A stretch of DNA of 49,634 bases from Halodesulfovibrio spirochaetisodalis (GTDB lineage Bacteria > Desulfobacterota > Desulfovibrionia > Desulfovibrionales > Desulfovibrionaceae): NCBI RefSeq assembly GCF_001672295.1, contig NZ_JXMS01000028.1:1-49634 (forward strand). The letters run 5' to 3'. Below are positions 1 through 21,140 of this stretch, piece after piece. Each line of letters begins with the position of its first letter. Position 1 is the first letter of the stretch. The position numbers and the translations under genes were made by a program. The notes beneath the pieces were generated by a model. The model worked only from the letters and a program-made list of their open reading frames with translations. It had not been told where the DNA came from and made no database searches.

Positions 1-1434
1 AACAGTGCCTACGTCCTGCCCTTCCTCAATCCCTTCTTGAAAGAGGGTCGCAAACTGCTGGGCATCAACAAACTGCTCACTGGCTTCAGTAGGGAACACA
101 CTGTTAATGAACTCGCCAAGAGCTTCAGGAGAACGCTCAGCAAGCTTGCTTTTTGCAACCGCATCTGAAAGGGCAGAAAGCTGCACGCCATTTTGTGTAG
201 CCAACAGACCAGCTTGCCTTTTGTCCTCCACACGCTCTGCAACCTTGGAAACCCCACCGGATGAACCAAGTATTATCGCGCCAACAGCAACATCAACGTT
301 CTTCAAGCTGGCAATCACATCACTTACAACCCCGTCCATGTCCTTACCTTTAGCAAGGGCAGAAAACGCGGCCTGAAACGGCTCTTCAAGATACTCCGTA
401 AAACCTTCTGCTGCACCGGCAGCACCACGCCGCGCAAGGTTCTGCATGATGGTTTTTGTAGGAATTTTGCGGGTAAGCTCTTCCAGACCTACCTTGTTCA
501 GCAAGCCCACAACCACACCAAAACTTGTAGCAGCGGTCGCAGCGTCCGCCTGATCCACACCGTCACGCACCAAGTCTTCGTACAAACTTGCAGCTTCCTG
601 TAACCCGCCAACCACGGAAGGAACCGCAAGGCTACCTCCAGAAACAGTATACGCTGCTACCATCGGCAACATGCTTGATGCTGCTTCGCCAACCTGCGTA
701 ACAAGGTACTCTGGATTCACAAGAAGCTGCGGATTATCCCACAACGACTTGGTGACATGCTCCGGTAACGCAAGCAGTTCTGAGTTTAAGACCTCATCGT
801 TTATGTACTTGGACTGAGCAAGGTGAAACTGTTCGCTGCGTTTAAAAATTCCAGTGTGTCCAGTTCCAAGCGCATCACCTATTCCATGTTCAACAGAGTC
901 CAAAGTTCCAGATAAATACGCCATGCTTTGGTTGTAGAACTGAAAAACTTTAGGCACTGCGCGGCCTGCTGTCTTACCAAGCGCTCGAAAGGGATTTGAT
1001 TCCTGTTCTATTCTGATTAAATTCTCAAGATCGTCATGGGCCATGCCTGCATTTACAGGGTCACGCATAAAATACATGGTTCCGCCAGCATCCATAGTTT
1101 CCATCAAACGTTGCTGGCGTTCCGCTCTGTCCTGCGCAGAAAGCTGATCATAGTTTTGCTCAACAAAATCGGCATCCATACCTGTGCGCTTGGCAATCTT
1201 CTGCGCGTCTGCAACCGTGTCCGGATTACGGGTAACAGCATACTCCAACATCGGAGCTGCACTGCGCGGCAACCCTTCAAAAAGAGAACTGTCCACCTGC
1301 GAAACATCCGCGTCAGCTAAACGGCTTCCACCTGTAGATACAGGCGCCTGTTCCTGCTCCTCATCAACACGCGGGAGCCCTTCAAAAACAGAACTATCAA
1401 TCTGGCTCACATCAAGATTATTTAACAAACCCAT
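1..1434 (-). CDS. Large internal virion (DNA-ejection, gp16-like) protein, truncated by window edge
   Basis: The frame is open from an ATG at 1434 to the left edge (478 codons, no stop), so the gene continues outside the window. It follows the gp13-, gp14- and gp15-like genes, the position of the large internal core protein (T7 gp16) that is ejected into the host and forms part of the DNA channel. The visible part is hydrophilic at the N-terminus, with two Ala/Gly/Val-rich stretches in the middle that could insert in membrane. A 15-residue motif of the type DVSQ(I/V)DSS(V/L)FEGLPR occurs twice, at residues 8-22 and 43-57. The start lies 3 bases left of the upstream stop codon. The role is inferred from gene order; I see no lysozyme or protease motif in this part, and many such proteins carry further domains in the unseen C-terminal part. 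Confidence 0.6.
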   Translation of the reverse strand, partial: MGLLNNLDVSQIDSSVFEGLPRVDEEQEQAPVSTGGSRLADADVSQVDSSLFEGLPRSAAPMLEYAVTRNPDTVADAQKIAKRTGMDADFVEQNYDQLSAQDRAERQQRLMETMDAGGTMYFMRDPVNAGMAHDDLENLIRIEQESNPFRALGKTAGRAVPKVFQFYNQSMAYLSGTLDSVEHGIGDALGTGHTGIFKRSEQFHLAQSKYINDEVLNSELLALPEHVTKSLWDNPQLLVNPEYLVTQVGEAASSMLPMVAAYTVSGGSLAVPSVVGGLQEAASLYEDLVRDGVDQADAATAATSFGVVVGLLNKVGLEELTRKIPTKTIMQNLARRGAAGAAEGFTEYLEEPFQAAFSALAKGKDMDGVVSDVIASLKNVDVAVGAIILGSSGGVSKVAERVEDKRQAGLLATQNGVQLSALSDAVAKSKLAERSPEALGEFINSVFPTEASEQFVDAQQFATLFQEGIEEGQDVGTV

Positions 1435-1436
1435 GG

Positions 1437-3167: not shown

Positions 3168-3175
3168 CGTTCCCC

Positions 3176-3571
3176 CTACCGCAGCAGTGAATATGCACTG
3201 GAGCCAGCGCTTGCCATGCCGTTAAACATGGTCGATGTGCTACGGGCATATCCGCGGTTTTCAATGAGTGCCGCTTTAGAGTTGCCTTGGTAGTATGCAG
3301 CAACCGCGTCCATGTTGGTTTCTACGTCTGTCTGCTCCATCACATTTGCAGCAGTGCTGTCCGTGTCCACAACAACACCGCTTGCCGCGTAGGAAGCACG
3401 TTGCGCCCCAACCAGCCTGCGCCCCTCTTCGCGCTTTACAGAAGCGTTGTACGCGCCAACGGCTCTGGCCTGTTTGCTCTCATCATCTGCAAGCTGCTGT
3501 TGCTGATCTGCTGCCTGCTTGCTCCCCACAACGCTTAACGCTGTACCCACAGCTGCCGCTACCATCGCCAT
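3176..3571 (-). CDS. Internal virion protein, gp14-like (131 aa)
   Basis: This is a small protein with an Ala/Val-rich hydrophobic N-terminus (residues 2-20), then a Gln/Asp/Glu-rich helical stretch, an Ala-Ser-Gly-Val-rich middle, and a helix ending in a Ser/Ala/Gly-rich tail. This layout (short hydrophobic start, QQQQ-rich helix, conserved SGV.VD-type centre) is typical of the gp14-like internal core proteins of podoviruses, which form the outer-membrane pore of the ejection channel. The start at 3571 has a GAGGAGG-type ribosome site about 10 bases upstream; an ATG two codons downstream is an alternative. It lies between the gp13-like and gp15-like genes. Confidence 0.6.
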   Translation of the reverse strand: MAMVAAAVGTALSVVGSKQAADQQQQLADDESKQARAVGAYNASVKREEGRRLVGAQRASYAASGVVVDTDSTAANVMEQTDVETNMDAVAAYYQGNSKAALIENRGYARSTSTMFNGMASAGSSAYSLLR

Positions 3572-3574
3572 ACG

Positions 3575-4027
3575 CTACGCCTCCTCTGCCGGAGCGATGA
3601 AGGCATACAGATACCTGTCCAGCAGGTTCTCACCTGTTGCCCTGCACACCCCTTCACGCTCAAAGCCCAAAAATTCAATAAATCGCAACGCCCGTTCATT
3701 CTGCATGTTCATGAGCGTTTCAAAACGCACCATCCCTCTTGCTCGCCCGTTGGAAATCAGCTTTTTTAGTACCTTCACCAACAGCAGCGGGTAACGCTCC
3801 CCGGCAGAAGAAACAACAAGATAGACACCGCACGTTTTCCCCAACCGGACCCCACCGGAACAGAACAAAATTTCACCGTCCTGCAGCACAGTCACGGCTT
3901 CATCTGACATGGCAGAAAAGTACTGCCCATGCGCTTGCAGGTTTACGCCTGCAAAGTCCGGCTGGTCAGAGTCACGCATGGTTATGTTCAGCAAGTCTTC
4001 CGGCTTAAAAGGTCGAATCATCGGCAT
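3575..4027 (-). CDS. GNAT-fold virion-associated protein, T7 gp13-like (150 aa)
   Basis: The N-terminus (residues 4-20) has the IRPF.PEDL look of a GNAT-type acyltransferase fold, and the C-terminal half includes a MNMQNERALRFIEFLGF segment (about residues 107-123), where GNAT proteins carry the N.RA..F.E..GF motif. In podoviral late operons a protein of this kind sits between the tail tubular B gene and gp14, and corresponds to T7 gp13, needed for virion morphogenesis. Whether this copy binds acetyl-CoA is not evident: the usual R/Q-x-x-G-x-G/A loop is only loosely matched by SNGRARGM (about 92-99). It starts 3 bases downstream of the tail tubular B stop; ATG 4021 is an alternative start. 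Confidence 0.6.
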   Translation of the reverse strand: MPMIRPFKPEDLLNITMRDSDQPDFAGVNLQAHGQYFSAMSDEAVTVLQDGEILFCSGGVRLGKTCGVYLVVSSAGERYPLLLVKVLKKLISNGRARGMVRFETLMNMQNERALRFIEFLGFEREGVCRATGENLLDRYLYAFIAPAEEA

Positions 4028-4029
4028 AG

Positions 4030-5760
4030 CTACACCGTCACTTCAATTTCACGGATTAACGCCAGCAGCGAGAACGGCAGCGGATCGCTGCCAAACACAG
4101 ACACTTTAGGGTTGTTGCTCCAACCCGTAGCCACGGAAGGTAACTCTAAATCCCCTGTAAACGGTGTGACCGGCTTGTGCATAGCGTTGTTGACGCTACG
4201 CAAAAACGTATCGCGCTCCGCATCATCACCCACCTTGTAGCGCATGCCCACGGAGTGCAGAACGCGTAGCGTTACTTTCACAAGGCGCTTTATCACCCCT
4301 TGCCCTGTTCCTTGCGGGTGTCCGCCTTCCGGCTGCAACGGTGTTACGCGGTATGTGTAGCCAAGCCCTACAACGATGGTATCTGCTGGAGAATCAAGCG
4401 TGATGGAGCCGTTCTGCACCACCTTTTCCTTTTGCACACCGCCGTCTGCCAACACCTGCACGGTCATGCCGTTAAGATGCTCAAGGCCGGAAACACTCGA
4501 AAGCTTGCTACCCTGGTATGAAAGCCCGCAGTCCACATAAAAACAATCTGCATCGTCCAAGTTATCGCCCTGCCACGGGCTAGCCATCTGTTCTATGCAC
4601 ACCCTTCCGTTTCGTCTCACAGCAAGCCAAATCTCGGTGTAATCTTCTGCGCTGTTAGCGCACACAGAAAGTACGCGCCCCTGTGTAGTGTGCCGGTGCC
4701 ACGCATACACCTTCTGGTCGCGCAGGTAGGTCATGGCTGCCAGTGTACCGTCTTCCAACACACACCAGATGATTGAATCAGGGTCTTGCTGCCATGCAAG
4801 CTGCTTTACACGCGGGCGTAGCAGATGTTCAGAAAGCAACGATGCCTCAAGTGGCACAAAGCCGTCCTGCTCATAGCTGTAGATAAACTCACGCAGCTTT
4901 TTACGATCACGGGAAACAAACAGGGTGGATGCCCCGATAAGCATCGGCGGAACATGTGCAGCGCACCCAACGTTGCTATGTCGAACCGCCTGAACATCGG
5001 TAGGCGTCACCCCGCCTTTTTGTGATCCGGAGAGCGTCCACTCTCCGCCACTGGTCAACACCACAAGCGAACGGGCAGGAACCATGCCGCGAATCTGGTT
5101 CACTTGGTCAGAATCCAAAGCAAACCCACCGCCAGAGTCATCCTGTTTTGCATCGCCGCCCATGTGTAAAAAGTTACCTGTCTTAGAGAACCACAGCTTC
5201 TGCGGATTGTTCGGGCAGCCGCTCCACCATGTGCGCTGCTGAAACAAGCTGATACGTGCCGGCCAGTTTCCTCCGCTCCACTCAGATGGCTGCGAACTAA
5301 ACGAACATACAGCAACGCTAAACACGTCCGGTCCCGTGCGTTGCAGCTTGCGCGGCTGATGGTTCGGGTGGCAGATAAACAGCACATCCGCAGACTGTGA
5401 AAATTGCAGCTCGTGCACTTCCTGCGCTGTGTACGGCAAGGTCAGTTCACGCGGGGAACCGCCGTTCATAAGCTGCCCGCCATCACGCCAAAAACGCACA
5501 TATCCTGCGCCGAACTCAAGCACATACGTCTGAATGTCGTTAAAAGAAAAATCCTTCAGGCGTGGCGAATTGTTTCCCTCTTTGGCAAAGCCCCTAAAGC
5601 GTGTCCCCATCCTGCGAGTTGCGCCGCCATGAGGCCACACAATCAGGTTTTCCAGCTCTTCACAGGCGTTCGCTCGCTTCTGAAGGTCAACATGTCCGGC
5701 AAGGCGCGGAGACCACTCGCCGCTCGTAAAATTTGTTTGTATCTGTCTATGTTCCGGCAT
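4030..5760 (-). CDS. Tail tubular protein B-like (tail nozzle), 576 aa
   Basis: The N-terminus (QIQTNFTSGEWSPRLAGHVD, residues 6-25) and the following RRMGTRF segment are characteristic of the podoviral tail protein placed directly after the gp11-like adaptor: 'F..GE.SP.l.gR.DL.ky...c..l.N..v.p.GG..RR.GT.F'. The remainder is beta-rich with many Trp and Tyr residues, as expected for a nozzle ring. A good AAAGGAACGTC ribosome site precedes the ATG at 5760. It lies between tail tubular A and the gp13-like gene. Family membership is clear from the N-terminal motif; the nozzle role is inherited from related podoviruses. Confidence 0.8.
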   Translation of the reverse strand: MPEHRQIQTNFTSGEWSPRLAGHVDLQKRANACEELENLIVWPHGGATRRMGTRFRGFAKEGNNSPRLKDFSFNDIQTYVLEFGAGYVRFWRDGGQLMNGGSPRELTLPYTAQEVHELQFSQSADVLFICHPNHQPRKLQRTGPDVFSVAVCSFSSQPSEWSGGNWPARISLFQQRTWWSGCPNNPQKLWFSKTGNFLHMGGDAKQDDSGGGFALDSDQVNQIRGMVPARSLVVLTSGGEWTLSGSQKGGVTPTDVQAVRHSNVGCAAHVPPMLIGASTLFVSRDRKKLREFIYSYEQDGFVPLEASLLSEHLLRPRVKQLAWQQDPDSIIWCVLEDGTLAAMTYLRDQKVYAWHRHTTQGRVLSVCANSAEDYTEIWLAVRRNGRVCIEQMASPWQGDNLDDADCFYVDCGLSYQGSKLSSVSGLEHLNGMTVQVLADGGVQKEKVVQNGSITLDSPADTIVVGLGYTYRVTPLQPEGGHPQGTGQGVIKRLVKVTLRVLHSVGMRYKVGDDAERDTFLRSVNNAMHKPVTPFTGDLELPSVATGWSNNPKVSVFGSDPLPFSLLALIREIEVTV

Positions 5761-5769
5761 GACGTTCCT

Positions 5770-6336
5770 TTACCGTGATCTGCGGTATCCGAGCTTGGCA
5801 GATTTCCATTTGTTCGTGCGAATATCCTTCGGGGTTGTTTCCCGTGTGGTGGTATGAATAGCGCGCCTCAAACACACCAACGCTTTCTGCTCCAACTTTT
5901 CTGACAGCGACTTTTTAGACGTCAGCGGCATAGCCAAACGAGAAGCCAGCTCGTACACAATCGCATCCTCCAACGCCGCATCATAAAGCTTGGTATCCGT
6001 GGAAACGTACTTGATAGAAACGTCCTTCTGGTCAGAAAGAATCACCCCGCTTTCAATGGCGTACGACGTTTCAGGGTACACGCTCACAAGCACCGCATAG
6101 TCAACCGGAAGCACATGGGCATACGCGTACTCCCACGCAGGCTTATCCGGGCTGCGGTTCAGCTTTGCACGGCGCAGGCAGCAAGGCCACGGGTGCGCAC
6201 GCAACACAGCATCCCGTGCAGGCTGCCAAGAACGGCTGGCAACTTCCGCATACACCGTTCCGTCGCTAAGCTCCGAGATGGCAGGCGCGTTAACTTCGCC
6301 AAGCGCTCTGTTGATGATGGTGAGTGTTTTAGACAT
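5770..6336 (-). CDS. Tail tubular protein A-like (head-tail adaptor), 188 aa
   Basis: The protein opens with TIINRALGEVNAPAISELSD and contains the segment SWQPARDAVLRAHPW (about 35-49), followed by a YAYAHVLPVDY stretch. This matches the gp11/tail tubular A adaptor family, where 'in.AL..lGa..i.sl.d.s..a......y...rd..L..hpW..A..r' is conserved. Such proteins form the ring joining portal to tail nozzle. The AUG at 6336 has a GGAGG ribosome site about 7 bases upstream, and that GGAGG belongs to the hairpin repeat at 6342-6403, so the repeat supplies the translation signal. The gene is followed by tail tubular B after 9 bases. Confidence 0.8.
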   Translation of the reverse strand: MSKTLTIINRALGEVNAPAISELSDGTVYAEVASRSWQPARDAVLRAHPWPCCLRRAKLNRSPDKPAWEYAYAHVLPVDYAVLVSVYPETSYAIESGVILSDQKDVSIKYVSTDTKLYDAALEDAIVYELASRLAMPLTSKKSLSEKLEQKALVCLRRAIHTTTRETTPKDIRTNKWKSAKLGYRRSR

Positions 6337-6341
6337 GGTGT

Positions 6342-6403
6342 GCCTCCGGCGGCTGGGGAAAACCTTTGCAAAGGTTTTTCCCCAGACCCCTTTCCAAAAC
6401 TTT
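6342..6403. repeat. GCCTCCGGCGG hairpin repeat, copy 1
   Basis: The gap between two late genes holds GCCTCCGGCGG, then a long inverted repeat at 6353-6385 (arms CTGGGGAAAACCTTTG and CAAAGGTTTTTCCCCAG, differing by one A), then GACCCCTTTCC. A second element with the same plan (GCCTCCGGCGG, hairpin, GACCC) lies in the opposite orientation at 9257-9312. This looks like a dispersed extragenic palindromic element. On the minus strand its edge provides the GGAGG ribosome site of the tail tubular A gene. Confidence 0.7.
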
Positions 6404-6457
6404 ATGAGGACGACTGCGACAAGTCGGTTTCAAGCCGCAGCCTACGGCGCAAAGAAC

Positions 6458-6901
6458 TTACAAGTTCTGAATCGCCTCTTCGAGGACAGACTTGTTTTCG
6501 TTATCCGCAACAAGTTTTTTCAGATTAGCAACCTGTGCCTGAAGCGCTGTTGCGACCTCAGCAGACTTTGCAAGGGCTTCGTTTTCCTGTTTCAACGATA
6601 CAGCGGATTCGAGCGCGGTATCGCGTTCAAGCTCTACGGCTTTCAGCCGCTTTCCTTGCTCTGTAAAGTCTGTAAGCAAAACTTCATGTACTCCTTGAAG
6701 TTCTGCTAATTCTTCACCGGAAACCAGCTGGTTATCTTCTTTCACTTCAGGTTGTTTCGGATGTACAAGCAGCTCTTTGCCTTCTTCGTCCATCGCTTCC
6801 CAAGATGCAGCAGAGACAGATTCAGAGAACTTCTCAACTGCACCTTTTTCGTAGATTTCGCCGCCATAAAAGCAGCGTTTTTTTGCTGTAAATAAGGGCA
6901 C
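6458..6901 (-). CDS. Small late-operon coiled-coil protein (147 aa, GTG start)
   Basis: The reading frame extends further upstream, but an AGGAG site followed after 8 bases by GTG at 6901 marks the likely start, 12 bases past the previous stop; the product then begins MPLFTAKKRCFYGGEIYEKG. After this beta-like head (basic residues, YGG.IYEKG) the protein is Glu/Leu/Lys-rich, with a long coiled-coil forecast at about residues 55-140. Position between the capsid cement protein and the adaptor suggests a head-completion or accessory structural role, but the family is not one I can name. The downstream gap holds the hairpin repeat rather than an immediate next start. Confidence 0.6.
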   Translation of the reverse strand: MPLFTAKKRCFYGGEIYEKGAVEKFSESVSAASWEAMDEEGKELLVHPKQPEVKEDNQLVSGEELAELQGVHEVLLTDFTEQGKRLKAVELERDTALESAVSLKQENEALAKSAEVATALQAQVANLKKLVADNENKSVLEEAIQNL

Positions 6902-6912
6902 GGCACACGCTC

Positions 6913-7302
6913 CTAGCGGGTTGCGTACGGGTACACATCCACCTTGCCGACACACGCACCGTCAGACACAAGGTCACACTTGATAAAGCGCTTTGCCTGA
7001 GAAGGCAGCACAGCTTCACCAAGGTGCTTACCAGCGACATATGCGCCCGCCTGAAACGTGACACGGCACATTTCCTTGTACGTACCATCTGCTGTGTCAC
7101 AATCTTTCACCACCAAATGCAGCACCTTTGTAGACGGAATGGTCACAGCAGTTTTACAGCGCACAGTTACGCCCGTGCCACCAACAGAACCGGACAACTT
7201 TGCAGGCCCACCTGTAAGCGCTGTAGTCCCAGAGTTCGGCAACGTGACAGCCTCTCCCAAATACTCCCCATACTGCGGGAGTCTGTTATCAAACATTCGC
7301 AT
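6913..7302 (-). CDS. Bbp16-like capsid cement protein (129 aa)
   Basis: This short beta-rich protein follows the major capsid gene. It starts MRMFDNRLPQYGEYLGEAVT, and has a Gly/Thr/Ser-rich middle and a VVKDCDTADGTYKE segment of the type 'l.l.ds.t.dgtf..l', seen in the Bbp16 family of BPP-1-like phages, which decorate or cement the capsid. I chose ATG 7302 because AAGGGG lies 7 bases upstream; the frame is open 7 codons further. It overlaps the ribosome site of the next gene. It is separated from the capsid gene by an unusual 125-bp inverted repeat, which could lower its expression relative to capsid. Confidence 0.6.
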   Translation of the reverse strand: MRMFDNRLPQYGEYLGEAVTLPNSGTTALTGGPAKLSGSVGGTGVTVRCKTAVTIPSTKVLHLVVKDCDTADGTYKEMCRVTFQAGAYVAGKHLGEAVLPSQAKRFIKCDLVSDGACVGKVDVYPYATR

Positions 7303-7351
7303 GAGAAAACCCCTTGCTTGCAATGTTTTTTTAAACCCTCACCACCCGCAA

Positions 7352-7476
7352 ACGTTGACCTGTAGGCGGTGAGATACAAGGCACAAGAGAAAGCCAAGGG
7401 CGAAATGTAGTCAGTCCTACATGAGCGTTTGGCTTTCTCGCAGTAACGCCGTAGATCGCTGCCTACAGGTCAACGT
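7352..7476. repeat. 125-bp nested inverted repeat after the major capsid gene
   Basis: The outer arms ACGTTGACCTGTAGGC (7352-7367) and GCCTACAGGTCAACGT (7461-7476) are perfect complements. Inside, GAGAAAGCCAA and TTGGCTTTCTC pair, followed inward by CGAAATGTAG/CTACATGAGCG, leaving a loop of about 6 bases near 7412. The segments between the arms are partly complementary, so almost the whole 125 bp can fold into one long hairpin. The right arm includes the last codons and stop of the capsid gene (stop at 7463-7465). There is no T-tract, so it is not a plain intrinsic terminator; a processing or attenuation signal or a small palindromic mobile element are possible. Confidence 0.8.
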
Positions 7477-8380
7477 GCTGTTCGGTGCCGTCCATGAAGT
7501 TGAATGAGGTCTGAATCTCAACACCGTTCCAGTGGGTAAAAGTACGGTTGATGTTCTTGGTATCCGTTGTTGTCTGCATGCTTTTGCCTTTATGCTCGTT
7601 AAGCAGCGTCTGGCATTTTGGATGGCAGAAAATGTACGTGTTTGAAGAGTTAGACGCTCGACAATCTGCAAGCATATTGTCGATCATGTCAGCGGTTGGC
7701 TTGTGTTCTTTGTCGATATTGCGGATTGCAGCAATTTTTTTCGGATTTGCAAGCAGCAGTCCCATGTAGGCTTTTAGCGCTATGCCATAGACAAGAACCC
7801 CATCTTTATCCTTGTACAGTCCACCGTTGTTAATCGGTTCAACATCCATGATTGCACCCATTTTAAACCCTGCCGGAGAATACAATCCGCACAATTCATC
7901 CTGCGTAAACGTCACAGCAATCATGCTGTATCCATCACCAGAAGCACCAGCATCTACCACCTTGTTATGCTCATGCGCATACGGCAAAAAGTTGTTGTAG
8001 ATAATGGCTGTTTCCGCTGACATGCCAGACTCGCGTTGCGTCTTGGGAAGTTTTTTAGCGAAATATTTTTCCTTACCGCCGAAGGCCTTAGCACGATCCT
8101 GCGGCACTTCAATTTCACCACCAAGAATAGCCAAATCGGTCTTTTTGATATCGGCTGACACACTCATGGCAGGCAGCGGCGCGTTCATGGGAACCCAGCC
8201 AGCACCCTGCACACCGGACAGCTCTTCGTGGTTATGCCAAAGCTCATGAGAAGAAGGAGCCAACGGCAAGATACCCAAAATCGGAGCTTCTTCCGTAATC
8301 GTGTCCACCTGATGAGGCTGCTTTTTGCAGTGCTCGTTACTCAACTCTTTGAGTGTCCCCATTAAAAAGTCTTTACCCAT
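7463..8380 (-). CDS. Major capsid protein (305 aa)
   Basis: Position (after the scaffold gene, before a small cement protein), length and a very strong ribosome site (GGAGGTATCGC before ATG 8380) point to the major head protein. The N-terminal part has the pattern of a helical arm followed by ITEEAPILGILPL and a Trp-containing loop, as in the BPP-1/epsilon15-type capsid group, followed by a mixed alpha/beta body with no enzymatic motif. The C-terminus ends in a beta-rich segment with W.GVEI. The coat fold (HK97-type or its BPP-1 permuted variant) is expected from the family, not visible by eye. The last codons lie in the arm of a long inverted repeat. Confidence 0.8.
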   Translation of the reverse strand: MGKDFLMGTLKELSNEHCKKQPHQVDTITEEAPILGILPLAPSSHELWHNHEELSGVQGAGWVPMNAPLPAMSVSADIKKTDLAILGGEIEVPQDRAKAFGGKEKYFAKKLPKTQRESGMSAETAIIYNNFLPYAHEHNKVVDAGASGDGYSMIAVTFTQDELCGLYSPAGFKMGAIMDVEPINNGGLYKDKDGVLVYGIALKAYMGLLLANPKKIAAIRNIDKEHKPTADMIDNMLADCRASNSSNTYIFCHPKCQTLLNEHKGKSMQTTTDTKNINRTFTHWNGVEIQTSFNFMDGTEQHVDL

Positions 8381-8429
8381 GCGATACCTCCGTATCTGCG
8401 CTGTTATAAAAAAGCTGTACCCATACGGG

Positions 8430-9194
8430 CTACTTCATGGCCTGTTTCAGCCACTCTTCCGTGCTCATCTCTTCATCTTCCCCGCCACCTGCTCCGGCAC
8501 CGTGAAAACTGCCGTCTTCGCCGGTAAGTCTGCCAAGCTCTGTGATGGCCTTCATGGCGTGCGTTACGCGCAACCCCTTGGAGGCATCGATACCAAGCGC
8601 CTTTAAGCCGCGCTCAAGCATGGGCAGCGCTTCCTGTGCTTTGTCCCCGTACACTTCCTTCAGCACTGTTTCCGGCTTTTGTGCTTCAAGGTCGGCCTGC
8701 TCTGTAGCTTTGGTGATTTCCGTAACGTTGCTTACGTAGTCTCGGAAAATACCTTCCGCCTGATGCGGCAACAGACCGTGCTTCGCTGCCATTTCCGCAA
8801 ACAAGGTTGCATCACCGGACACGTCCCAGCCTGCAGGCGTTTCTATGCCTTCAAACTGGGTAGGGATTTTGTATTCATCTGCCTTTTCAAACGCTCCGTT
8901 CTGGCGGACAAATTCGAGATACTTTTCCGGTGTAGAGAAATCCGGTGTATCCGCGCCCTGTTCGCCGCCTTGCGCGCCTTCTTGGCTACCGCCTTGCCCT
9001 GAACCTTCATCACCTGCAGCCCCACCGCCTTGCTCTCCAGCGGCACCACCTTCGGCATCTGCTGCGCCTCCAGACTCTCCACCACCGGATTCGCCACCTT
9101 GAGCACCTTCAGCAGCGCCGCCAGCTTCACCACCGCCTGCTCCTTCCTGAGCAAAACCTAAACTCGGTGTCATCGCTCCAAATAATTTCAACAT
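8430..9194 (-). CDS. Scaffolding protein (254 aa)
   Basis: Residues 17-82 are a low-complexity stretch made almost only of Gly, Glu, Ala, Ser and Gln. Then comes a conserved-looking TPEKYLEFVRQNGAFEKADEY-like core (about 87-107, shown here only in part), a helical region and an acidic, Gly-rich C-terminus ending EEWLKQAMK. Very acidic, helix-rich proteins encoded just before the major capsid gene are typical phage scaffolds that guide procapsid assembly and then leave. ATG 9194 has an excellent AAAGGAGATTGAT site. The Gly/Glu repeats are encoded by a GGAGGC-rich DNA stretch that can slip during replication, so length may vary between relatives. Confidence 0.75.
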   Translation of the reverse strand: MLKLFGAMTPSLGFAQEGAGGGEAGGAAEGAQGGESGGGESGGAADAEGGAAGEQGGGAAGDEGSGQGGSQEGAQGGEQGADTPDFSTPEKYLEFVRQNGAFEKADEYKIPTQFEGIETPAGWDVSGDATLFAEMAAKHGLLPHQAEGIFRDYVSNVTEITKATEQADLEAQKPETVLKEVYGDKAQEALPMLERGLKALGIDASKGLRVTHAMKAITELGRLTGEDGSFHGAGAGGGEDEEMSTEEWLKQAMK

Positions 9195-13909: not shown

Positions 13910-14434
13910 CTACAACTTTGGTCGCTGTGCTTCGTCTTTACGAAAAGAGCCTAAAGAAGAGCCAAGGTAGTAGTTAACAACTGCACCAAAGGCAGTGCCA
14001 AGGGAGCCAAGCAACAACAAGGCTGGCTCGCTCACCTGCGGAGCAGATACTACTTCGCGCAGCATCCAGAAAAAACCGCAGATAACCACAAGAGAAACAA
14101 TGCCGGTAACCCAAGCGCCACCGTGACCGGCCTTAGCAAGCGCAATCTCACGCGCTCTTGCATCCTGAACATTACGTAACTCAGCATCGAGCTGTGCTTT
14201 CTGCCACCCGATCAACTGCGCCTGCTGCTGTGCCTCAAGCTCTTTCAACTTCAAGAGCGTTTCAGGATTCTGCTTGATAGCCTGCTCAACCGCCTGCGGA
14301 GAATCCTCACACCCAAGGAAAGAGGCAACAAGAGTACCGGCAGCACCGGCAATCGCCCCAACCGGCCCACCTAACGCAGCACCCAAAATCGGTGCACTTT
14401 TGGCTACAACAGCGCCTATGTCTTTCCAGTCCAT
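13910..14434 (-). CDS. Holin-like protein with C-terminal membrane segments (174 aa)
   Basis: I start the gene at ATG 14434 (MDWKDIGAVVAK), which has a GTGGGG ribosome-like stretch; the longer open frame above it is poor protein-like sequence. The product has a Gly/Ala-rich hydrophobic region (about 17-38), a Gln/Leu/Glu-rich helix, and two strong membrane helices (about 103-123 and 138-155). This is the layout of the three-TM holin family found in gene-transfer agents and phages. Holins form the membrane lesion that times lysis. The endolysin is not next to it in this window. It is the first gene of the late leftward cluster. Confidence 0.6.
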   Translation of the reverse strand: MDWKDIGAVVAKSAPILGAALGGPVGAIAGAAGTLVASFLGCEDSPQAVEQAIKQNPETLLKLKELEAQQQAQLIGWQKAQLDAELRNVQDARAREIALAKAGHGGAWVTGIVSLVVICGFFWMLREVVSAPQVSEPALLLLGSLGTAFGAVVNYYLGSSLGSFRKDEAQRPKL

Positions 14435-14581
14435 GCCAACACCCCACATAGTAAAATCGATAAAGATTTTATTCGTGGGGATTGTCCGGTGTTGAGCACC
14501 AAAGAAGCCAGAAAAGACCCAAAAACAACAGTTCCAACCGCCCGACAATCGCACGGACAATCACCCCGAATGATTAGCGGG

Positions 14582-14610
14582 AGTATAACATGGGTTTTTA
14601 AGGTGGTTCA
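14582..14610 (-). promoter_or_regulatory. Candidate late promoter
   Basis: On the minus strand a TATACT -10 box (14582-14587) lies 17 bases from a weak TGAACC -35 box (14605-14610), about 150 bases upstream of the first late gene. Nearby, GGACAATC-like octamers occur three times (14479-14486 on the minus strand, 14542-14549 and 14553-14560 on the plus strand, positions approximate), which may be an activator site. Only the -10 box is a good consensus match, so this is tentative. Confidence 0.3.
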
Positions 14611-14786
14611 GTCAGGGAAGGGTGGGGAAGGTTTGGGGAGGCGGGAGCATAGTTGACATAAGTCTGAAGACACCACCAAACGAAAATAACATCTTTAAAT
14701 AAAAACTATTGGCGTTTACATAAAGGATAAAGAGTTGTAAGCAACAACTTACTTCAAAAAATACTTTATTACATGCTGGGTGGGTT

Positions 14787-15674
14787 ATGACGAAACTAAA
14801 AACTCAACTGGAAAACGCTGCTGAAATTAAAGCAACACTACAGCGCCTCAACATCAGACATACGATTGATGATGTCGATGTAGAATGCTGTGTAGTCTAC
14901 TTACCTTGTAGCAACGGTGTATGTGATACAGCACTTCTTTTCGAGATAATCAAAAATGGTCTTTTAACGAACTTCGCATTGTCATATTCAGAAATACAAA
15001 AGAAGCTTGCATTTGCACCGGATGATGCTGTTGAGGCACTGCTAAATAAATCCATTCGGAAACTAAGCAAAAAAACAGCCCATGGAGAACTAGGTGAGTT
15101 ATTACTGTTTACCATCCTTGATGTATACCTCACTGCGCCTAAGATATTGAGTAAAATTTCGCTTAAAACATCGCCACGCATGCCTGTTTTTGGGGCAGAC
15201 GCAGTTCATGCGCAATATATTGATGGAAATCTAAGGCTTTATCTTGGAGAATCAAAGCTCTACAAAAACTTTAATTCTGCAAAAACAAAGGCATTGAAAT
15301 CAATTCAAACTTCTTTTGATCAATACGGTCAAGATTTTGATCTAATTGAAAGTTACATGGATTTCCCTGAAATGACTCCGCAAGGGCAACACGAACTTAT
15401 CAAGTTGTTAAACCCTTTCACAAGAGACGCTGTTTTTTCTCCAGATATGCTCTATACTCCATGCTTTATCGGCTTTGAAGATCCAAAACTTTTTGCAAAT
15501 AACAATAACTACATCAATCGCTATAAAATTGTTGCTAAATCGCACCTCGATAGTTTTTACAATTCTGCACAAAGAGTAGGTGTATCTCCCCACAAAACAG
15601 CCTTATTAATTCTACCTTTTTCCTCAATTAAAGAACTCGTACTTGGGTTTGTTGACTATATGGAGATTGCTTAA
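14787..15674 (+). CDS. hamA: Hachiman defence protein HamA (DUF1837-type nuclease), 295 aa
   Basis: HamA is the effector of the Hachiman anti-phage system; with the helicase HamB it senses damaged or foreign DNA and degrades DNA. The family core is visible: HGELGELLLF at about 99-108, GADAVHAQY at 136-144, and YLGESKLY at 152-159. Together these give the acidic/lysine set E101 or E104, D138, E155 and K157 of a PD-(D/E)XK-type nuclease. Length is normal for HamA. The stop and the hamB start share one base (TAATG), so the pair is translationally coupled. The region is much more A+T-rich than the late operon beside it, a sign of separate acquisition. A GGGTGGG stretch precedes the ATG. Confidence 0.85.
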   Translation: MTKLKTQLENAAEIKATLQRLNIRHTIDDVDVECCVVYLPCSNGVCDTALLFEIIKNGLLTNFALSYSEIQKKLAFAPDDAVEALLNKSIRKLSKKTAHGELGELLLFTILDVYLTAPKILSKISLKTSPRMPVFGADAVHAQYIDGNLRLYLGESKLYKNFNSAKTKALKSIQTSFDQYGQDFDLIESYMDFPEMTPQGQHELIKLLNPFTRDAVFSPDMLYTPCFIGFEDPKLFANNNNYINRYKIVAKSHLDSFYNSAQRVGVSPHKTALLILPFSSIKELVLGFVDYMEIA

Positions 15675-18160
15675 TGCCAACATTATATACTGCACTCTCA
15701 CAGAACATCATTGAAACCCCAGAGTATGCGAAAGCAGTCAATGTTCTTTTCGATGCATATATCAAAAAAACAGCTGGTGAGCCTTTCGAATTACCTATCG
15801 ACACTCAACAAAAGCTGTCCACTTCTTCGCAGTACTTTTATCAATCCGATAACCAAGCTCACGTGAATGAAGGTGCTAATCTCTTATCAATGCTACTATT
15901 TGTAGCAGGCGAAGACACGGCGGAACTTATCCCAATTGCAAAGCAAGTTTATTCAGATTCGGGTGATTTCCCCAACCTTAAGCTCCTTGAAAATAAATTC
16001 CAACAAGTCAAATTTAAACTCAGTGTCTTTTCAAAAACGCAAAATGAGTTACGACAAACTTTAAACACAATCGAAGCTGTTTCCCATCCTCTAACTGACT
16101 ATCAAAGAAACCTTTGGGAAGATCTCAAAAATGATGAAGATGTGATCACAGTTGCCCCAACCTCCACAGGGAAAACTCACATCATCTTACAATACATCGT
16201 AGAGGAAGTAGCTTCAGCTTATGAAGCTTTTGCAGCTATTGTGGTACCGACACGTGCCCTTATCTCAGAAGTCGCAAATAACCTTTATGAAATTGCCAAA
16301 AGCAAAGGGTACGAAAACAACATCGAAATCTGTACTGTCCCTAAGGACGGTACTTTTAATGATAAAACGATATTTGTTATGACTCAAGAACGCTTATTTG
16401 AGTTACTCCAAGGTCAAGCAATTTCTTTCGATTACCTATTTATTGATGAAGCACATAACATCTCAGATAAGAGCCGAGGGGTTCTCCTTCACTTAACACT
16501 CCAACACGTCCTTGAAGACAGCTCTCCACAAATAATCATCAGTATGCCTTCTGAACAATATCAGAACGCATTTGAATCAGTATTCTCTGATGTTAATTTT
16601 TCAAGACAAATTGTAGCACACTCCCCTGTTGCAAAAGTTTTTATCTCCACAAAGCTGAAAGGAAGAAACATCGAGCTATCAAAACTCGGCTCTGACTCTT
16701 TGTGTGTTATTCCAAAGAATTTTACTGGAAGTAAGCTTGCAGATCTTGCCTATAGATTAGGGCAAGGCGAAAGCAACATCGTATACCGCAACAAAACCAA
16801 CGAATGTGAAGATGTTGCACGTGATATCGCAAAAAATATTCCAGAAGAAGTTAATTCAACTAGATTATTTGAAGCAGCGGACTATGTCGAAAAATTCTTA
16901 CATGAAGACTTTTCGTTAGCAGATAACTTAAGAAGAGGTGTCGCCTTTCACTATGGCCCATTGCCGGGAGTGATCAGGAGGATGATTGAAGATTTAGCTA
17001 GAGAAGGGGAAGTAAAATTTATCGCATGTACTAGCACATTGGCGGAGGGGGTTAATCTACCAGCAAAAAACCTATTCCTCATAAATCCAATGCAGATTGT
17101 ACCTTATAGCGCACCAGATAGATTGGAAGATGTTCGTCTAGACAACATCACAGGTCGCGCAGGAAGAATGCTAGAACATCTATCTGGTAATATTTTTCTT
17201 ATCGATCAAACAGAATGGACATTCAAAGATTATTTTGATGATATTAAGAAAGAAGAAAAAATTCCAATTTTCTTCAATGTGTTAAATGAAGATATCGAGA
17301 ATGTAATCAATGCATTAACAGGAACATTCGATTCCCAAGAAGAGGGACAATATACTCTCTACACTATTGCTAATAAATTAGTTCGTGAGTACGGCAATGA
17401 AACTCTATCAACCACGCTTAATGCACCAGAGCTATCACTTCCAGCTAACAAACAAGCAAGCTTAGTTGCGAGCATCAAAGCTGCTTACGAAAACCTAAAA
17501 GTCTCTACATTTACTTTAGAAGCAAATCCAACTATTGGCTACATCCAGCAGAACAGACTTTATCAATTTCTGAGTAGCCAAAGAAACATTGATGATTGGG
17601 TACTGCCTCACCCTATGTCAGCAGACTTGTACCCAAGACTTCTCACAATCTGCAACACCTTAAAGGATCAAGGTATTTTCTTCCCCACTCACTCAAGTTC
17701 TGAGTTTATTTCCAGCTTAGCTAAAAAATGGATTCAAGGAAAACCACTGAGAACAATCATAAACGACCAAATTGTATATGACAGTGGAAAAGAAAGAATT
17801 CCTTCCTGCAACAAAAGTGTTCGAGACGTTATCAAGACTGTAAATACAGATATACGCTTTAAATTCGCAGCAGCGTTGCGATGCTATCATCTAATTTTGA
17901 CTGAAGTACTATCCAAAATGAAATCTGATACTATATCTGTAAAGCTTCATACTTTTATAGAAATCGGAGGCTGCAGTGAACGAATCATTAACTTAGTTAA
18001 TATGGGTCTAGCACGCGAAGCAGCAATCGAAATTCACAATATTCTTCCTGATAGGATTCGTATTAGTTCTTTTGAAGAATTAAAAAAGCTGTTCGAGTCA
18101 AACAAACTTGAACAGCTTCACGCAGTAACCCAAAAAGAATTGGTTAAACTATTTTCATAG
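15674..18160 (+). CDS. hamB: Hachiman defence protein HamB (superfamily 2 DEAH helicase), 828 aa
   Basis: This is the helicase partner of HamA. The N-terminal 140 residues are helical and family specific. They are followed by the helicase core: motif I APTSTGKTH (161-169), a PTRAL motif Ia (192-196), DEAH in LFIDEAHNI (258-261), a CTSTLAEGVNLPA motif (about 456-468) and the motif VI NITGRAGRM (about 493-501). The last 250 residues are a helical C-terminal domain. The layout and neighbour make Hachiman the clear call rather than a generic repair helicase. The reading frame is intact, with no frameshift. The 3' end overlaps the convergent gene by 17 bases. Confidence 0.85.
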   Translation: MPTLYTALSQNIIETPEYAKAVNVLFDAYIKKTAGEPFELPIDTQQKLSTSSQYFYQSDNQAHVNEGANLLSMLLFVAGEDTAELIPIAKQVYSDSGDFPNLKLLENKFQQVKFKLSVFSKTQNELRQTLNTIEAVSHPLTDYQRNLWEDLKNDEDVITVAPTSTGKTHIILQYIVEEVASAYEAFAAIVVPTRALISEVANNLYEIAKSKGYENNIEICTVPKDGTFNDKTIFVMTQERLFELLQGQAISFDYLFIDEAHNISDKSRGVLLHLTLQHVLEDSSPQIIISMPSEQYQNAFESVFSDVNFSRQIVAHSPVAKVFISTKLKGRNIELSKLGSDSLCVIPKNFTGSKLADLAYRLGQGESNIVYRNKTNECEDVARDIAKNIPEEVNSTRLFEAADYVEKFLHEDFSLADNLRRGVAFHYGPLPGVIRRMIEDLAREGEVKFIACTSTLAEGVNLPAKNLFLINPMQIVPYSAPDRLEDVRLDNITGRAGRMLEHLSGNIFLIDQTEWTFKDYFDDIKKEEKIPIFFNVLNEDIENVINALTGTFDSQEEGQYTLYTIANKLVREYGNETLSTTLNAPELSLPANKQASLVASIKAAYENLKVSTFTLEANPTIGYIQQNRLYQFLSSQRNIDDWVLPHPMSADLYPRLLTICNTLKDQGIFFPTHSSSEFISSLAKKWIQGKPLRTIINDQIVYDSGKERIPSCNKSVRDVIKTVNTDIRFKFAAALRCYHLILTEVLSKMKSDTISVKLHTFIEIGGCSERIINLVNMGLAREAAIEIHNILPDRIRISSFEELKKLFESNKLEQLHAVTQKELVKLFS

Positions 18161-19004
18161 AAGTAGAAAAATAACTAAGGGCATTGAGAAGAACTTCCTT
18201 TGCCCTTTTTTCATCAATAAAATTCTTGCGAAGCAGCAATTCAGAATTAAAAACAGCATAAACAGTCCCCAAGTTTATGCTAACATGCTGCTCCTCTCTA
18301 TCAACAGCTTGCACAGCAAGGGCGCTGCACCCTTCATTTTCTATCAATTCATCTAGGTAGTTACAGGTTTCGGCTTGATCATATTCTTCTAGGTCGGAGA
18401 TAGTAAGCGCCAACTTCGATCTTTTTAAAAAACGAGTTTGGCTAATTCCTTCCAACAGCATTGGGACTCTATTAGGCTGCTCAAATAATTTAGCAAGATC
18501 TACTGTAACTTTTATCTCTTTAAAAATTTGAACTTCTTTAAGTTTCTCATATTCTGTCTCGCGCGAAACTTGCTCGACTACAATTTTAGATGTCCGTTCT
18601 GAACTAAATTGCTGCAGTACTGTTACTGCAGTCGATTTTAGACTATCACCTGGGCAAGTTGTAAAACCAAGTATGACTTTTCTATCTGGAACTAATACGA
18701 AATAAAATGGATCTCCAATAATTCCTTGGTTCAAAGAAATACCAGTGATCGCCCCATCATTTAACCCTCGCGTTTGCCAAGTATTTCTCTCCCTAACCAC
18801 AGATAAAAAATAACACTCATTTCCTTCCAATCCAAAGCTATCCTGCATTTTGATCAAATATTTCTTATCACGTATATTTATTAGCCTTGTTGGCTTATCT
18901 AGGCTTTTGCTAGAATCATGGACGGCAATAAAATCATCAAAGAATGAACCATATGCTTTTATCGAAAAGACTTTTACAGCAACTTTCTTTTTCAACTTAC
19001 TCAT
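18144..19004 (-). CDS. Unknown protein convergent with hamB, faintly RexA-like (286 aa)
   Basis: I do not recognise this family with confidence. The protein is soluble, mixed alpha/beta, with a beta-rich N-terminal half (residues 8-60, 95-125) and a helical C-terminal third. By eye the pattern GDPFYFVLVPDRKVILGF (about 103-120), followed by a region resembling IVVEQVSRETEYEKL, is laid out like the middle of lambda RexA, but this is a weak resemblance that needs a profile search. A GGGGAG site precedes ATG 19004. It is convergent with hamB, overlapping its last 17 bases, so the two stay together; a regulator, immunity factor or an independent exclusion gene are all possible. Its A+T-rich composition matches hamAB. 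Confidence 0.6.
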   Translation of the reverse strand: MSKLKKKVAVKVFSIKAYGSFFDDFIAVHDSSKSLDKPTRLINIRDKKYLIKMQDSFGLEGNECYFLSVVRERNTWQTRGLNDGAITGISLNQGIIGDPFYFVLVPDRKVILGFTTCPGDSLKSTAVTVLQQFSSERTSKIVVEQVSRETEYEKLKEVQIFKEIKVTVDLAKLFEQPNRVPMLLEGISQTRFLKRSKLALTISDLEEYDQAETCNYLDELIENEGCSALAVQAVDREEQHVSINLGTVYAVFNSELLLRKNFIDEKRAKEVLLNALSYFSTSMKIV

Positions 19005-19194
19005 AATACTCCCCGCATCCTACTCACAACTTTTATCCCGACCTCGAAGGAACAAGCAATCGCCTGTTATTATATAACAATATAGCAATGCATATATTCT
19101 AAATTGACTCTTACACCATTTGCTCAAAACTCACCAGCACCTGAAAGTCTAACTATTTTTTTCATATCCTACTAACAGCCGCAAAGCTCATTAC

Positions 19195-19374
19195 CTATCT
19201 CCCCTGCCTTACCAGCCACACCGTCAACGCATTCACTTCAGCCCCGTAGGTGCGCCCGTCCTTGTAGATCGGCGCACCTTGTTCATGCCATTTCTTAACA
19301 GTCCGACGACTTCGGCCAAACTCTTTACATATCTGTTCAAGACTCTTCAAAACCTTCGGTGCCACAACTGTCAT
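19195..19374 (-). CDS. Small helix-turn-helix protein, excisionase- or Nu1-like (59 aa)
   Basis: This short frame starts at ATG 19374 with a GGAGGGG site upstream, located in the end of the preceding gene. The product begins MTVVAPKVLKSLEQICKEFG and has a winged-helix-like SLEQICKEFGRSRRTVKKWH motif (11-30), then a wing with GAPIYKDGRTYGAEV and a final WLVRQGR. This is the layout of phage DNA-binding proteins such as excisionase/AlpA or the Nu1-type DNA-packaging domain. It is the third gene of the int-HTH-HTH cluster, so a recombination directionality role is reasonable but unproven. Confidence 0.6.
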   Translation of the reverse strand: MTVVAPKVLKSLEQICKEFGRSRRTVKKWHEQGAPIYKDGRTYGAEVNALTVWLVRQGR

Positions 19375-19378
19375 CTCG

Positions 19379-19579
19379 CTACCCCTCCGTGCCTAGTACT
19401 TCGCGTTCATCTAAAAATTTTTCCAGAGCCGCCTGCCGGATTCGGTACATGGGCTTTGCTGCTGATCCGATGTTACTGGCGCGCAGCTCTCCCTTGCGGA
19501 TAAGCTTACGCACAACCTCAACGCGTACCCCAAGAGCGGCAGAAACATCCTTTACGGTCAGCGTTACACTTACACTCAT
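19379..19579 (-). CDS. Helix-turn-helix (MerR/excisionase-type) protein, 66 aa
   Basis: The protein consists of one winged helix: LTVKDVSAALGVRVEVVRKL (about 7-26) forms the helix-turn-helix, IRKGELRASNIG the wing, and MYRIRQAALEKFLDERE the closing helix. This is the standard 'helix-turn-helix domain, excisionase-like' architecture. Its ATG overlaps the integrase stop by 4 bases, so it is cotranslated with the recombinase. It probably acts as a recombination directionality factor or a local regulator of int. Confidence 0.7.
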   Translation of the reverse strand: MSVSVTLTVKDVSAALGVRVEVVRKLIRKGELRASNIGSAAKPMYRIRQAALEKFLDEREVLGTEG

Positions 19580-20205
19580 GCTCTCTCTCCTATGCTGAAA
19601 CTGCGCACCGCACCACGTAGATGCTCGTTCCGGAACGCAAGATAACTCTCGGTACTCCCCACGCTCTTGTGCCCGAGCGCCTTGGCAGTCTCGCGGTAGG
19701 CATCCACACCAACGCCCTGTGCGACAAGATCAAGCATATGCTCATACACGTTGTTGCCAAAGGTCTTACGCATGGAGTGCGTTCCCAGCTTGCCGGATAA
19801 CCCGCACATGCCGAACGCACGGGATAGAATCTGGTACGCCCTCACCCGTGTAATCGGGCTATTCTTCCCTTGCCGAGACTTGAACAGATAGCTGTCGTGG
19901 TTCCACACGCCGCGCTTCTGCATAACGTAGATCAACGCAAGAACAGCCTCTTGCGCTTGAGGATTCATAAACACCTGCCTGCTCTCATGCTTGCCTTTCA
20001 TGTTCCGGCGCAGCACTTCCACCTCTGCCCGTACACGCTTGTTCTGCACCACATCACGCACCCGCAGAGAAAGCAGCTCAGAAATCCTAAAACCGCTCAT
20101 CACACCAAGAATAAACAACGTCCTGTCCCGCTGCGCATCGTACCCGGTAAAGCTACTTGCAACCTGCTGCACTTCTTCAACAGAAAGCGGCCTGCACCCC
20201 TTCAT
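19576..20205 (-). CDS. int: Short tyrosine recombinase (phage integrase), 209 aa
   Basis: The catalytic domain is complete: R40 in SGFRISELL, K72 in KGKHESRQV, H143-x-x-R146 in THSMRKTF, H179 in LGHKSVGSTESYL and nucleophile Y188. The protein starts almost directly at the catalytic domain and lacks the N-terminal arm-binding and SAM-like core-binding domains of usual 320-400 residue phage integrases; it is closer in size to FimB/FimE. I chose ATG 20205, which has GAGG 5 bases upstream. It is followed by two overlapping HTH genes. It lies in the middle of the prophage, about 12 kb from the tRNA end, which is unusual for the enzyme that does integration. Confidence 0.85.
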   Translation of the reverse strand: MKGCRPLSVEEVQQVASSFTGYDAQRDRTLFILGVMSGFRISELLSLRVRDVVQNKRVRAEVEVLRRNMKGKHESRQVFMNPQAQEAVLALIYVMQKRGVWNHDSYLFKSRQGKNSPITRVRAYQILSRAFGMCGLSGKLGTHSMRKTFGNNVYEHMLDLVAQGVGVDAYRETAKALGHKSVGSTESYLAFRNEHLRGAVRSFSIGERA

Positions 20206-20573
20206 TTGCACCTCATGAAAAATGTTAAACTCAGCAACCTAACGCGCTGCTGAAATCCTGCCCGAAAAATTCCGCTCTCAACCGCCCTTGTCCTCATCCA
20301 CTCAAAAACTCAGCGTTCGGAAATAGAAGCTTAACTCTTTGTAATTTAATTCAATCCACAATCTGACGTTTGTTCGGAAATAAAAACCACTCCGTGAAAC
20401 AATTCAGCACCTTTGTAGAAAACGCAGCACCCGTTTAAAACGCGTCTAGCACGGTCTAGCTGCATGAGATTTATGTTTGCTGAGTCTGTTAAGCTCATAA
20501 AGCTTCAACGCGCTAACAACCTACTTTTATCTAGAGAGTTTACATTTAACATCAAAAGCTTTAATCGTCTTAT
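20206..20573. other. Gene-free interval upstream of int
   Basis: No convincing gene lies here. There are two GTTCGGAAATA repeats (about 20317 and 20371), a GTCTAGCACGGTCTAGC repeat near 20443-20459 and A+T-rich sequence. They could be recombinase or regulator binding sites; nothing here matches the 3' end of the tRNA-Arg gene, so I see no attachment core. Confidence 0.4.
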
Positions 20574-21140
20574 ATGCTTAACATTTTTAACAACCTTACT
20601 GATTACACATCGGATGGCGGAAACCTTGATGAACGAGGAAAAATTGCGATTAGATATGCAATCGTTGCAATCCTATTAAAGCTTTACTCTCTTTCACCTG
20701 TAGACTTTTCTTCAGTAAAAGAAGCACAAAGCGCTTCATCTATTGTTACTCAATATTTATTTACGGTACTTCCTGAGAAGGCACTCTACATATTTACGAT
20801 AGTAAACATGTATACAATGCTAGCTTTCTTTTTCTTTTATTTGGGAACCTATTCATGGATACTTTTACAAGCAGACAAAACTCCATTTGACAAAACGAAC
20901 CGGTCTTTCTTTCAAATTATGAAGAAAGATATTTCTAGCTTACAGAACAAATTCGAAAAATTTATATATTATACATTTCTCCCATTGGCTTTTTTGGCAT
21001 TTTATCTATCTAAATGCCTTCACTGTCTTCACAGAGCATTTTCAAGAATAGTGCCTGGATTATTTGGAATGGTGGCATTCTTCGTGACAATTAAGGAATT
21101 CTGTAAACTAGTTATCTTGTCATCTGATATACTCCCCTAA
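20574..21140 (+). CDS. Membrane protein of unknown function, likely prophage moron (188 aa)
   Basis: The gene is A+T-rich compared with its neighbours and lies on the opposite strand, convergent with the M15-like gene (21-base overlap), which fits an independently transcribed 'moron'. The product has a soluble N-terminus of about 25 residues, hydrophobic segments at roughly 26-42, 76-98, 130-146 and 158-182, and a Lys/Phe-rich cytoplasmic loop between the second and third. I do not recognise a family. No clear ribosome site precedes ATG 20574, so the start is uncertain. Superinfection exclusion is a common role for such membrane proteins but nothing in the sequence proves it. Confidence 0.55.
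   Translation: MLNIFNNLTDYTSDGGNLDERGKIAIRYAIVAILLKLYSLSPVDFSSVKEAQSASSIVTQYLFTVLPEKALYIFTIVNMYTMLAFFFFYLGTYSWILLQADKTPFDKTNRSFFQIMKKDISSLQNKFEKFIYYTFLPLAFLAFYLSKCLHCLHRAFSRIVPGLFGMVAFFVTIKEFCKLVILSSDILP

Follow-up and report, generated by a model that had tools for sequence, protein, structure and literature searches.

The window analysed here is one whole contig of 49,634 bases from a genome of 3.6 Mb. Its genes encode phage tail, head-tail adaptor, terminase, replication-initiation, repressor, and integrase proteins, and a block of three genes lies between the phage late genes and xis/int. An earlier note on this DNA had described the block as a prophage-borne Hachiman defence pair with a convergent third gene. 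The features of the locus are as follows.

13910 to 14560, minus strand: left neighbour, phage gene phrog_1544 (function of the phrog unknown)
14659 to 19203: block inserted relative to related prophages (blastn against L067, L068, L156, and L157)
14787 to 15674, plus strand: hamA, Hachiman effector nuclease, 295 aa (PADLOC HamA1, 378.8 bits; Pfam PF08878)
15198 to 15257, plus strand: HamA nuclease motif D138 ... E155-S-K157, read from the protein sequence
15674 to 18160, plus strand: hamB, Ski2-like sensor helicase, 828 aa (PADLOC HamB1, 1220.8 bits; DEAD PF00270)
16154 to 16177, plus strand: HamB Walker A APTSTGKT, aa 161-168 (pattern match)
16445 to 16456, plus strand: HamB DEAH box, aa 258-261 (pattern match)
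18144 to 18160: tail-to-tail overlap of hamB and the third gene, 17 bases
18144 to 19004, minus strand: third gene, 286 aa, bordering on DUF6731, with a RexA-like predicted fold, convergent with hamB
18708 to 18797, minus strand: part of the third protein with the strongest conservation, aa 70-99, VVRERNTWQ...NQGIIGDP, modelled for the most part as a loop of low confidence
19379 to 19579, minus strand: right neighbour, excisionase-like HTH protein (NCBIfam TIGR01764, 33.1 bits, cut-off 28.8)
19576 to 20211, minus strand: tyrosine recombinase (integrase; PF00589, phrog_216)

The three open reading frames, the TAATG junction, and the 17-base overlap that the earlier note had read from this DNA are all present. 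At the junction, hamA and hamB have one base in common, with the stop codon ending and the ATG beginning at 15674. The sharp drop in G+C was found again as well, from about 0.52 outside to 0.37-0.39 across the three-gene block. Promoter and terminator scans stayed near chance level.

HamA matches the PADLOC profile HamA1 (PDLC00152) and, with 127.5 bits (cut-off 25), Pfam PF08878. Its GAD...GESK motif is intact. HamB matches HamB1 (PDLC00181) and the Pfam DEAD family, and APTSTGKT, DEAH, and GRAGR are all present. D ... E-x-K occurs in all 25 HamA proteins examined (17 by pattern, 8 by eye); in the 22 HamB proteins of the A6 set, the Walker A pattern was found in every one and DEAH in 19. The features by which Hachiman is recognized, a HamA with its nuclease motif and an adjoining SF2 helicase HamB, are both in place. 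The earlier note had named a lack of Hachiman profile matches as evidence against its assignment, and the two PADLOC scores are the opposite. On sequence grounds, we regard HamA and HamB of the window as Hachiman; defence by DNA degradation is putative here. In the PDB, chain 9wh1_B, titled 'DNA polymerase theta (Helicase domain only)', aligns with the window HamB over most of its length at 171 bits, far above the 39 bits of other polymerase theta chains. This chain may be a mislabelled HamB. The same genome also has a second, distant Hachiman hamA-hamB pair (G000:C12:11887-13914, L047), and no third gene was found within the flank examined there.

Phage gene matches on both sides agree with the insertion of the cassette between late genes and the integrase cluster. 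Terminase relatives were collected (80 loci kept of 224; a second set of 26 of 119 genomes), and 11 loci were compared with the window. Four share both flanks, four match the terminase alone, and three have no matching stretch above 100 bases. The four sharing both flanks are L067, L068, L156, and L157 (the latter two in genome G001), with terminases 78-82% identical to that of the window. In these four loci, the shared left flank ends by blastn at window positions 14574-14658 and the right flank resumes at 19204-19225. A comparison with related prophages lacking the block had been suggested, and the block is indeed absent from the same site in all four. Between the shared flanks, L156 has about 0.16 kb. 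The corresponding interval measures about 2.4 kb in L067 and L157, which carry the same pair of genes there (367 and 344 aa), and about 7.2 kb in L068. These related prophages hold different contents, or next to nothing, at this position, which makes it a variable site for cargo, and the cassette is one such load. The best reading of the block is exchangeable cargo of a temperate prophage. A Hachiman carried in this way would protect the lysogen.

Several observations concern the cargo itself. The 367-aa and 344-aa genes adjoin each other (L157 7942-10132 and L067 403-2593) and show hydrophobic stretches by eye. Pfam and PADLOC scans gave no match for them, and they are a candidate for an uncharacterised defence pair. 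In L068, positions 1366-8553 hold a PLD-like protein and the PADLOC candidate-defence ATPase PDC-S06, spread over three ORFs. Beyond the integrase of the window (20574-21140) lies a low-G+C ORF of 188 aa that looks membrane-like by eye and has no match above any profile cut-off; it is perhaps another cargo gene. A transposon origin of the block was considered and rejected, as no 10-mer, direct or inverted, was found in common between its ends. The region is also contained in the IMG/VR contig UViG_2751185719_000003. With exact back-translated patterns, which miss divergent copies, the cassette was found in IMG/VR in this contig only, with the same sequence.

We searched for the third gene in 297 genomes of the order. 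This search, which in a few genomes scored only part of the candidates, gave five matches (G000, the genome of the window, G016, G201, G228, and G225). In the first four, the third gene lies tail to tail with hamB. The match in G225 (L015 8129-8302) is a 58-residue remnant without hamAB, and the frames beside it were judged by eye to be transposase debris. A row from G065 (29% over 80 residues, one stop) was dropped as weak. A phylum sample of 297 genomes added one row (G552) with nine internal stops, which was dropped as well.

A wider scan of a collection with one genome per species (84,980 species) gave 22 loci; it demands one of two exact short motifs and misses remote members. The carriers include a Pseudodesulfovibrio bin, Alteromonadaceae, Aeromonas, Enterobacteriaceae, Methylophilaceae, Pseudovibrio, and others. 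Some are metagenome bins labelled Bacteroidota, and several labels derived from such bins may be wrong. In 20 of the 22 loci, the third gene directly adjoins a hamA-hamB pair, in convergent orientation. Of the two exceptions, L032 runs into a contig end and L034 is cut short; the frames that follow the third gene of L034 resemble an IS3-type transposase. That the three genes form one cassette had been a guess in the earlier note, and the relatives bear it out.

Together with the window, G016, G201, and G228, 23 distinct intact homologues are known from these searches, and all 23 adjoin hamAB and converge on hamB. This is the reverse of homologues never found near hamAB, which had been named as the outcome that would count against the proposal. 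In the count, L018 equals G228 and was taken once, while L161 (G978) is nearly identical to L025, and L035 to L036, and these are not independent. L038 lacks a clear start codon at the usual position. Three copies are truncated, namely those in L032 and L034 and the G225 remnant. The junction of hamB and the third gene ranges from an overlap of 17 bases (+17) to a gap of 52 (-52) in the 21 loci computed. In G016:C14 (L005, L006), the cassette is near an integrase and conjugation-type genes, judged by eye. It looks like the cassette rides an integrative conjugative element there, and with this setting it is not tied to prophages. Profiles and relatives thus support the central proposal of a prophage-borne Hachiman with a convergent third gene.

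Single-sequence searches with two queries gave no match for the third protein in 72,556 plasmid and 50,697 phage records. HamB-like matches were found in 101 plasmid and 4 phage records, all below 60% identity and, among the 60 of the 101 plasmid matches listed, not above 32%. Because of this low identity, they do not belong to the HamB branch of the window. By megablast, the Enterobacter cassette was in no E. coli genome searched.

To approach the linkage from the other side, HamB profile searches were carried out in four partly overlapping genome sets (297, 321, 226, and 227 genomes). They yielded 20 distinct hamBs, of which 8 belong to the branch of the window, defined by at least 1344 bits with the A6 profile, and 12 are distant (132-376 bits). 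The second Hachiman of the window's genome (G000:C12) is among these 12. All 8 branch members have the third gene (window, G016, G201, G228, G978, G965, G588, and G589). G588 and G589 are centre genomes that had been chosen for carrying it; when they and the window are set aside, it is present in 5 of 5. Three of these five, G016, G201, and G228, had already come up when the same genomes were searched for the third gene. For the 12 distant hamBs, the loci extend at most about 1.5 kb to either side, so that a gene farther out would be missed; the third gene was found in none of them. Other Hachimans hence do without it, and the neighbour test suggested in the earlier note comes out as 8/8 versus 0/12 from the hamB side. 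In G965, the third gene starts roughly 1 kb past hamB and is truncated where the locus ends; a membrane-like ORF of 133 aa (L162 4368-4769) lies between the two.

In a maximum likelihood tree of 36 HamB proteins, a branch with 100/100 support separates the 24 carriers from all other sequences. The carrier label changes once on this tree, compared with a mean of 10.3 for shuffled labels; the tree has long branches among the non-carriers. Distances of third proteins and HamB proteins correlate with r = 0.89 (permutation p = 0.0001, n = 22). Common descent by itself accounts for the correlation, which does show joint inheritance.

A branch in which no hamAB lacks the third gene (8 of 8 in the hamB-first searches) could also be expected of a restraint, which is the main rival to the co-sensor role that we favour below. 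The third protein would then resemble a guard or antitoxin that covers DNA ends or binds HamAB; it would keep host replication from setting off HamA, and phage takeover would lift the restraint. Separate convergent transcription would suit a guard controlled by dose, but guards are often encoded in one operon with their toxin. The excerpts of PMC12278908 point in both directions, as Hachiman responds to DNA damage and risks autoimmunity, but in the system studied there HamB already restrains HamA. On balance, we consider a restraint unlikely.

Sequence comparison places the third protein near a single known family. The protein of the window had no match in PADLOC, NCBIfam, and PHROGs scans and only a chance-level one in Pfam. 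Among 24 members of the family, 15 match DUF6731 (PF20505) at E ≤ 1, with a best value of 4.7e-7. At a cut-off of 27 bits, the scores are 30.1 for L021, 27.4 for L033, and 24.0 for L005, with none for L031 and the window protein. Judged by these scores, the family borders on DUF6731. A scan of 99 relatives gave a DUF6731 match only for the third protein of G016, below the cut-off. The literature searched, one section of the wider literature, has no description of the third gene and no paper that names DUF6731. Two candidate identities were rejected over the 24 members: HamC (no PADLOC HamC and no DUF3223 in Pfam) and HamM or a protease (no MBL match in Pfam). The RexA family PF15969 gave no match in these 24 members either, with lambda RexA itself scoring 326.8 bits. 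Hhalign of the third protein with RexA as a single sequence gave a probability of 0.1, and a PDB sequence search with the third-protein profile had no match. Relatives of lambda RexA were found in 11 viral contigs (76-100% identity) and 19 phage records (46-100%).

AlphaFold2 models of the window protein and of the Pseudomonadales member L033 have moderate mean pLDDT values of 76.0 and 76.8 and rest on nearly the same alignment. In Foldseek searches against 350,542 PDB chains, two chains of lambda RexA (8TWQ) were the only matches at E ≤ 1e-3 for both models. The E-values were 7.9e-6 and 2.9e-5 for the window model and 1.9e-5 and 4.0e-4 for the L033 model, with a probability of 1.00. The next PDB matches followed at 1.6e-2 and 5.7e-2, respectively. 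Lower in the list for L033 is the kinetochore protein CENP-N (probability 0.69), which we take to correspond to CHL4. According to the available part of PMC11077077, RexA has been likened to RdgC and IML3/CHL4, binds DNA non-specifically, and consists of a globular domain split into two segments (1-139, 248-279), between which a dimerisation domain (143-234) is inserted. The same part states that AlphaFold-Multimer gives RexA in an open form, unlike the closed crystal form. The whole-chain TM-scores of our models to RexA, not taken domain by domain, are only 0.29-0.36, which could be because the open and closed forms differ.

The predicted element order of the third protein, with bounds set by us, is a globular part to about residue 147, an inserted part to about 260, and a closing C-terminal helix. 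This order fits the split globular and inserted domains of the RexA type in these models. In the window protein, the part assumed to be globular carries a net charge of +7, against -7 for the middle. Of the 15 alignment columns with a basic residue in at least 90% of cases, 12 are found no later than residue 137. Taken over whole members, the net charge varies between -8 and +5, so a basic character of the family is not clear. The charge split and the basic columns would fit a globular part that faces DNA. In BFVD, the window model has better matches in four uncharacterised phage proteins (A0A8S5S8L2, A0A8S5MSR5, A0A8S5QGP5, and A0A6J5Q1Z2; E 4.3e-13 to 1.4e-6, best TM 0.54) at 10-12% identity, which indicates that the fold is spread among phages.

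The resemblance to RexA might be misleading, and the third protein might instead be a cofactor of HamAB or another enzyme in which the loop ERNTWQ...NQGIIGD could be catalytic. It is true that RexA gave no sequence match, that the whole-chain TM-scores are low, and that residues 70-99, the best conserved, are poorly modelled. However, RexA came first for two models, with an E-value more than a thousandfold lower than that of the next PDB match that is not RexA. In our view, a misleading resemblance is improbable.

If the RexA-like fold is accepted, the third gene could still be a separate defence or exclusion gene with its own effector that merely shares an island with hamAB. RexA acts with the membrane protein RexB, as stated in the excerpt of PMC12894663, and the prophage site takes varied cargo. 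The membrane-like ORF at 20574 starts 1,570 bases beyond the cassette, outside the limit of 1.5 kb used in the survey, and a membrane-like ORF occurs inside that limit in 3 of 23 loci. Against this, in 20 of the 23 loci no ORF with at least two hydrophobic segments was found within 1.5 kb, by a crude hydropathy measure and with some flanks shorter. A RexB-like neighbour of the third gene is thus not conserved. In addition, hamB and the third gene remain tail-to-tail neighbours in a prophage, in a setting like that of a conjugative element, and in distant bacteria, and no intact copy away from hamAB was found in these searches. Hence, we regard a separate gene as improbable.

The reading we favour is a three-gene Hachiman variant whose RexA-like third protein would act as a DNA-binding co-sensor or licensing factor for HamAB; we put its probability at roughly one half. 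In other Hachimans, HamB senses damaged DNA and activates HamA (excerpt of PMC12278908), and RexA is held to be a DNA-binding sensor that activates RexB (available part of PMC12894663). By this co-sensor reading, the third protein would adopt a two-domain fold of the RexA type and form a dimeric clamp on DNA without sequence preference. It would help HamAB to recognize phage replication or recombination intermediates, and HamAB would then destroy the DNA, in the effector place held by the RexB ion channel in lambda. Transcription from the opposite side would allow the dose of the third protein to be set apart from that of hamAB. The data establish the gene linkage, the branch restriction, and the fold prediction; DNA binding, contact with HamAB, a role in defence, and a benefit to the lysogen are our inferences. 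The cassette may represent a third type of Hachiman, HamAB plus a DNA clamp of the RexA type, in which a lambda-type sensor is wired to a nuclease-helicase and not to an ion channel.

Hachiman is usually described as two genes, and this branch carries a third wherever we looked. It gives direct access to the question of how HamAB distinguishes the DNA of a phage from that of the host. In lambda biology, it has long been an open question what RexA senses, and a RexA-like protein joined to a nuclease-helicase that is tractable in vitro could make it testable. For annotation, the third gene is a marker of a subtype that is now scored as plain HamA1/HamB1. If a third type of this kind is borne out, clamps of the RexA type would be a sensor module that can be exchanged among the defences of prophages and hosts.

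Among known systems, Hachiman type I has the same two core genes, order, junction, and motifs; the cassette of the window differs by its third, convergent, conserved gene. The solved chain labelled HamB, 8vx9, is distant from the window HamB (38.5 bits). Lambda RexA (PF15969, PDB 8TWQ) is similar to the third protein in predicted fold, length, element order, and, in the window, prophage carriage. The third protein differs in that it has no sequence match to RexA, is linked to hamAB, tail to tail with its presumed partner, and has no conserved RexB-like neighbour. DUF6731 (PF20505) overlaps partially in score with the family, with the window protein unmatched. The BFVD phage proteins (A0A8S5S8L2 and three others) are the best structural matches of the window model, yet only at the low identity given above.

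Extra genes on a Hachiman base are already described. In Hachiman type II (PMC8565338, in excerpt), there are likewise three genes built on hamAB, with a HamC that is DUF3223, in about 3.8% of systems; the third protein of the window type does not match HamC/DUF3223 in any of 24 members. HamMAB, in the available part of PMC12799240, has likewise gained an extra gene, the MBL pro-nuclease HamM, along with a protease-HamA. The window HamA, with 295 aa, has no protease fusion and an intact nuclease motif, and the third protein has no MBL match. The earlier note had held that a third partner falls outside the usual description of Hachiman. This stands insofar as the gene matches neither HamC nor HamM, but not in the sense that extra genes are new to Hachiman. 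No paper in the literature searched joins the terms RexA-like, defense system, and helicase, and a review that covers Hachiman, HamB, and RexA treats them apart in the portion available. Measured against HamC and HamM, the extra genes known from the excerpts in print, a three-gene Hachiman with a RexA-like partner appears to be a new form.
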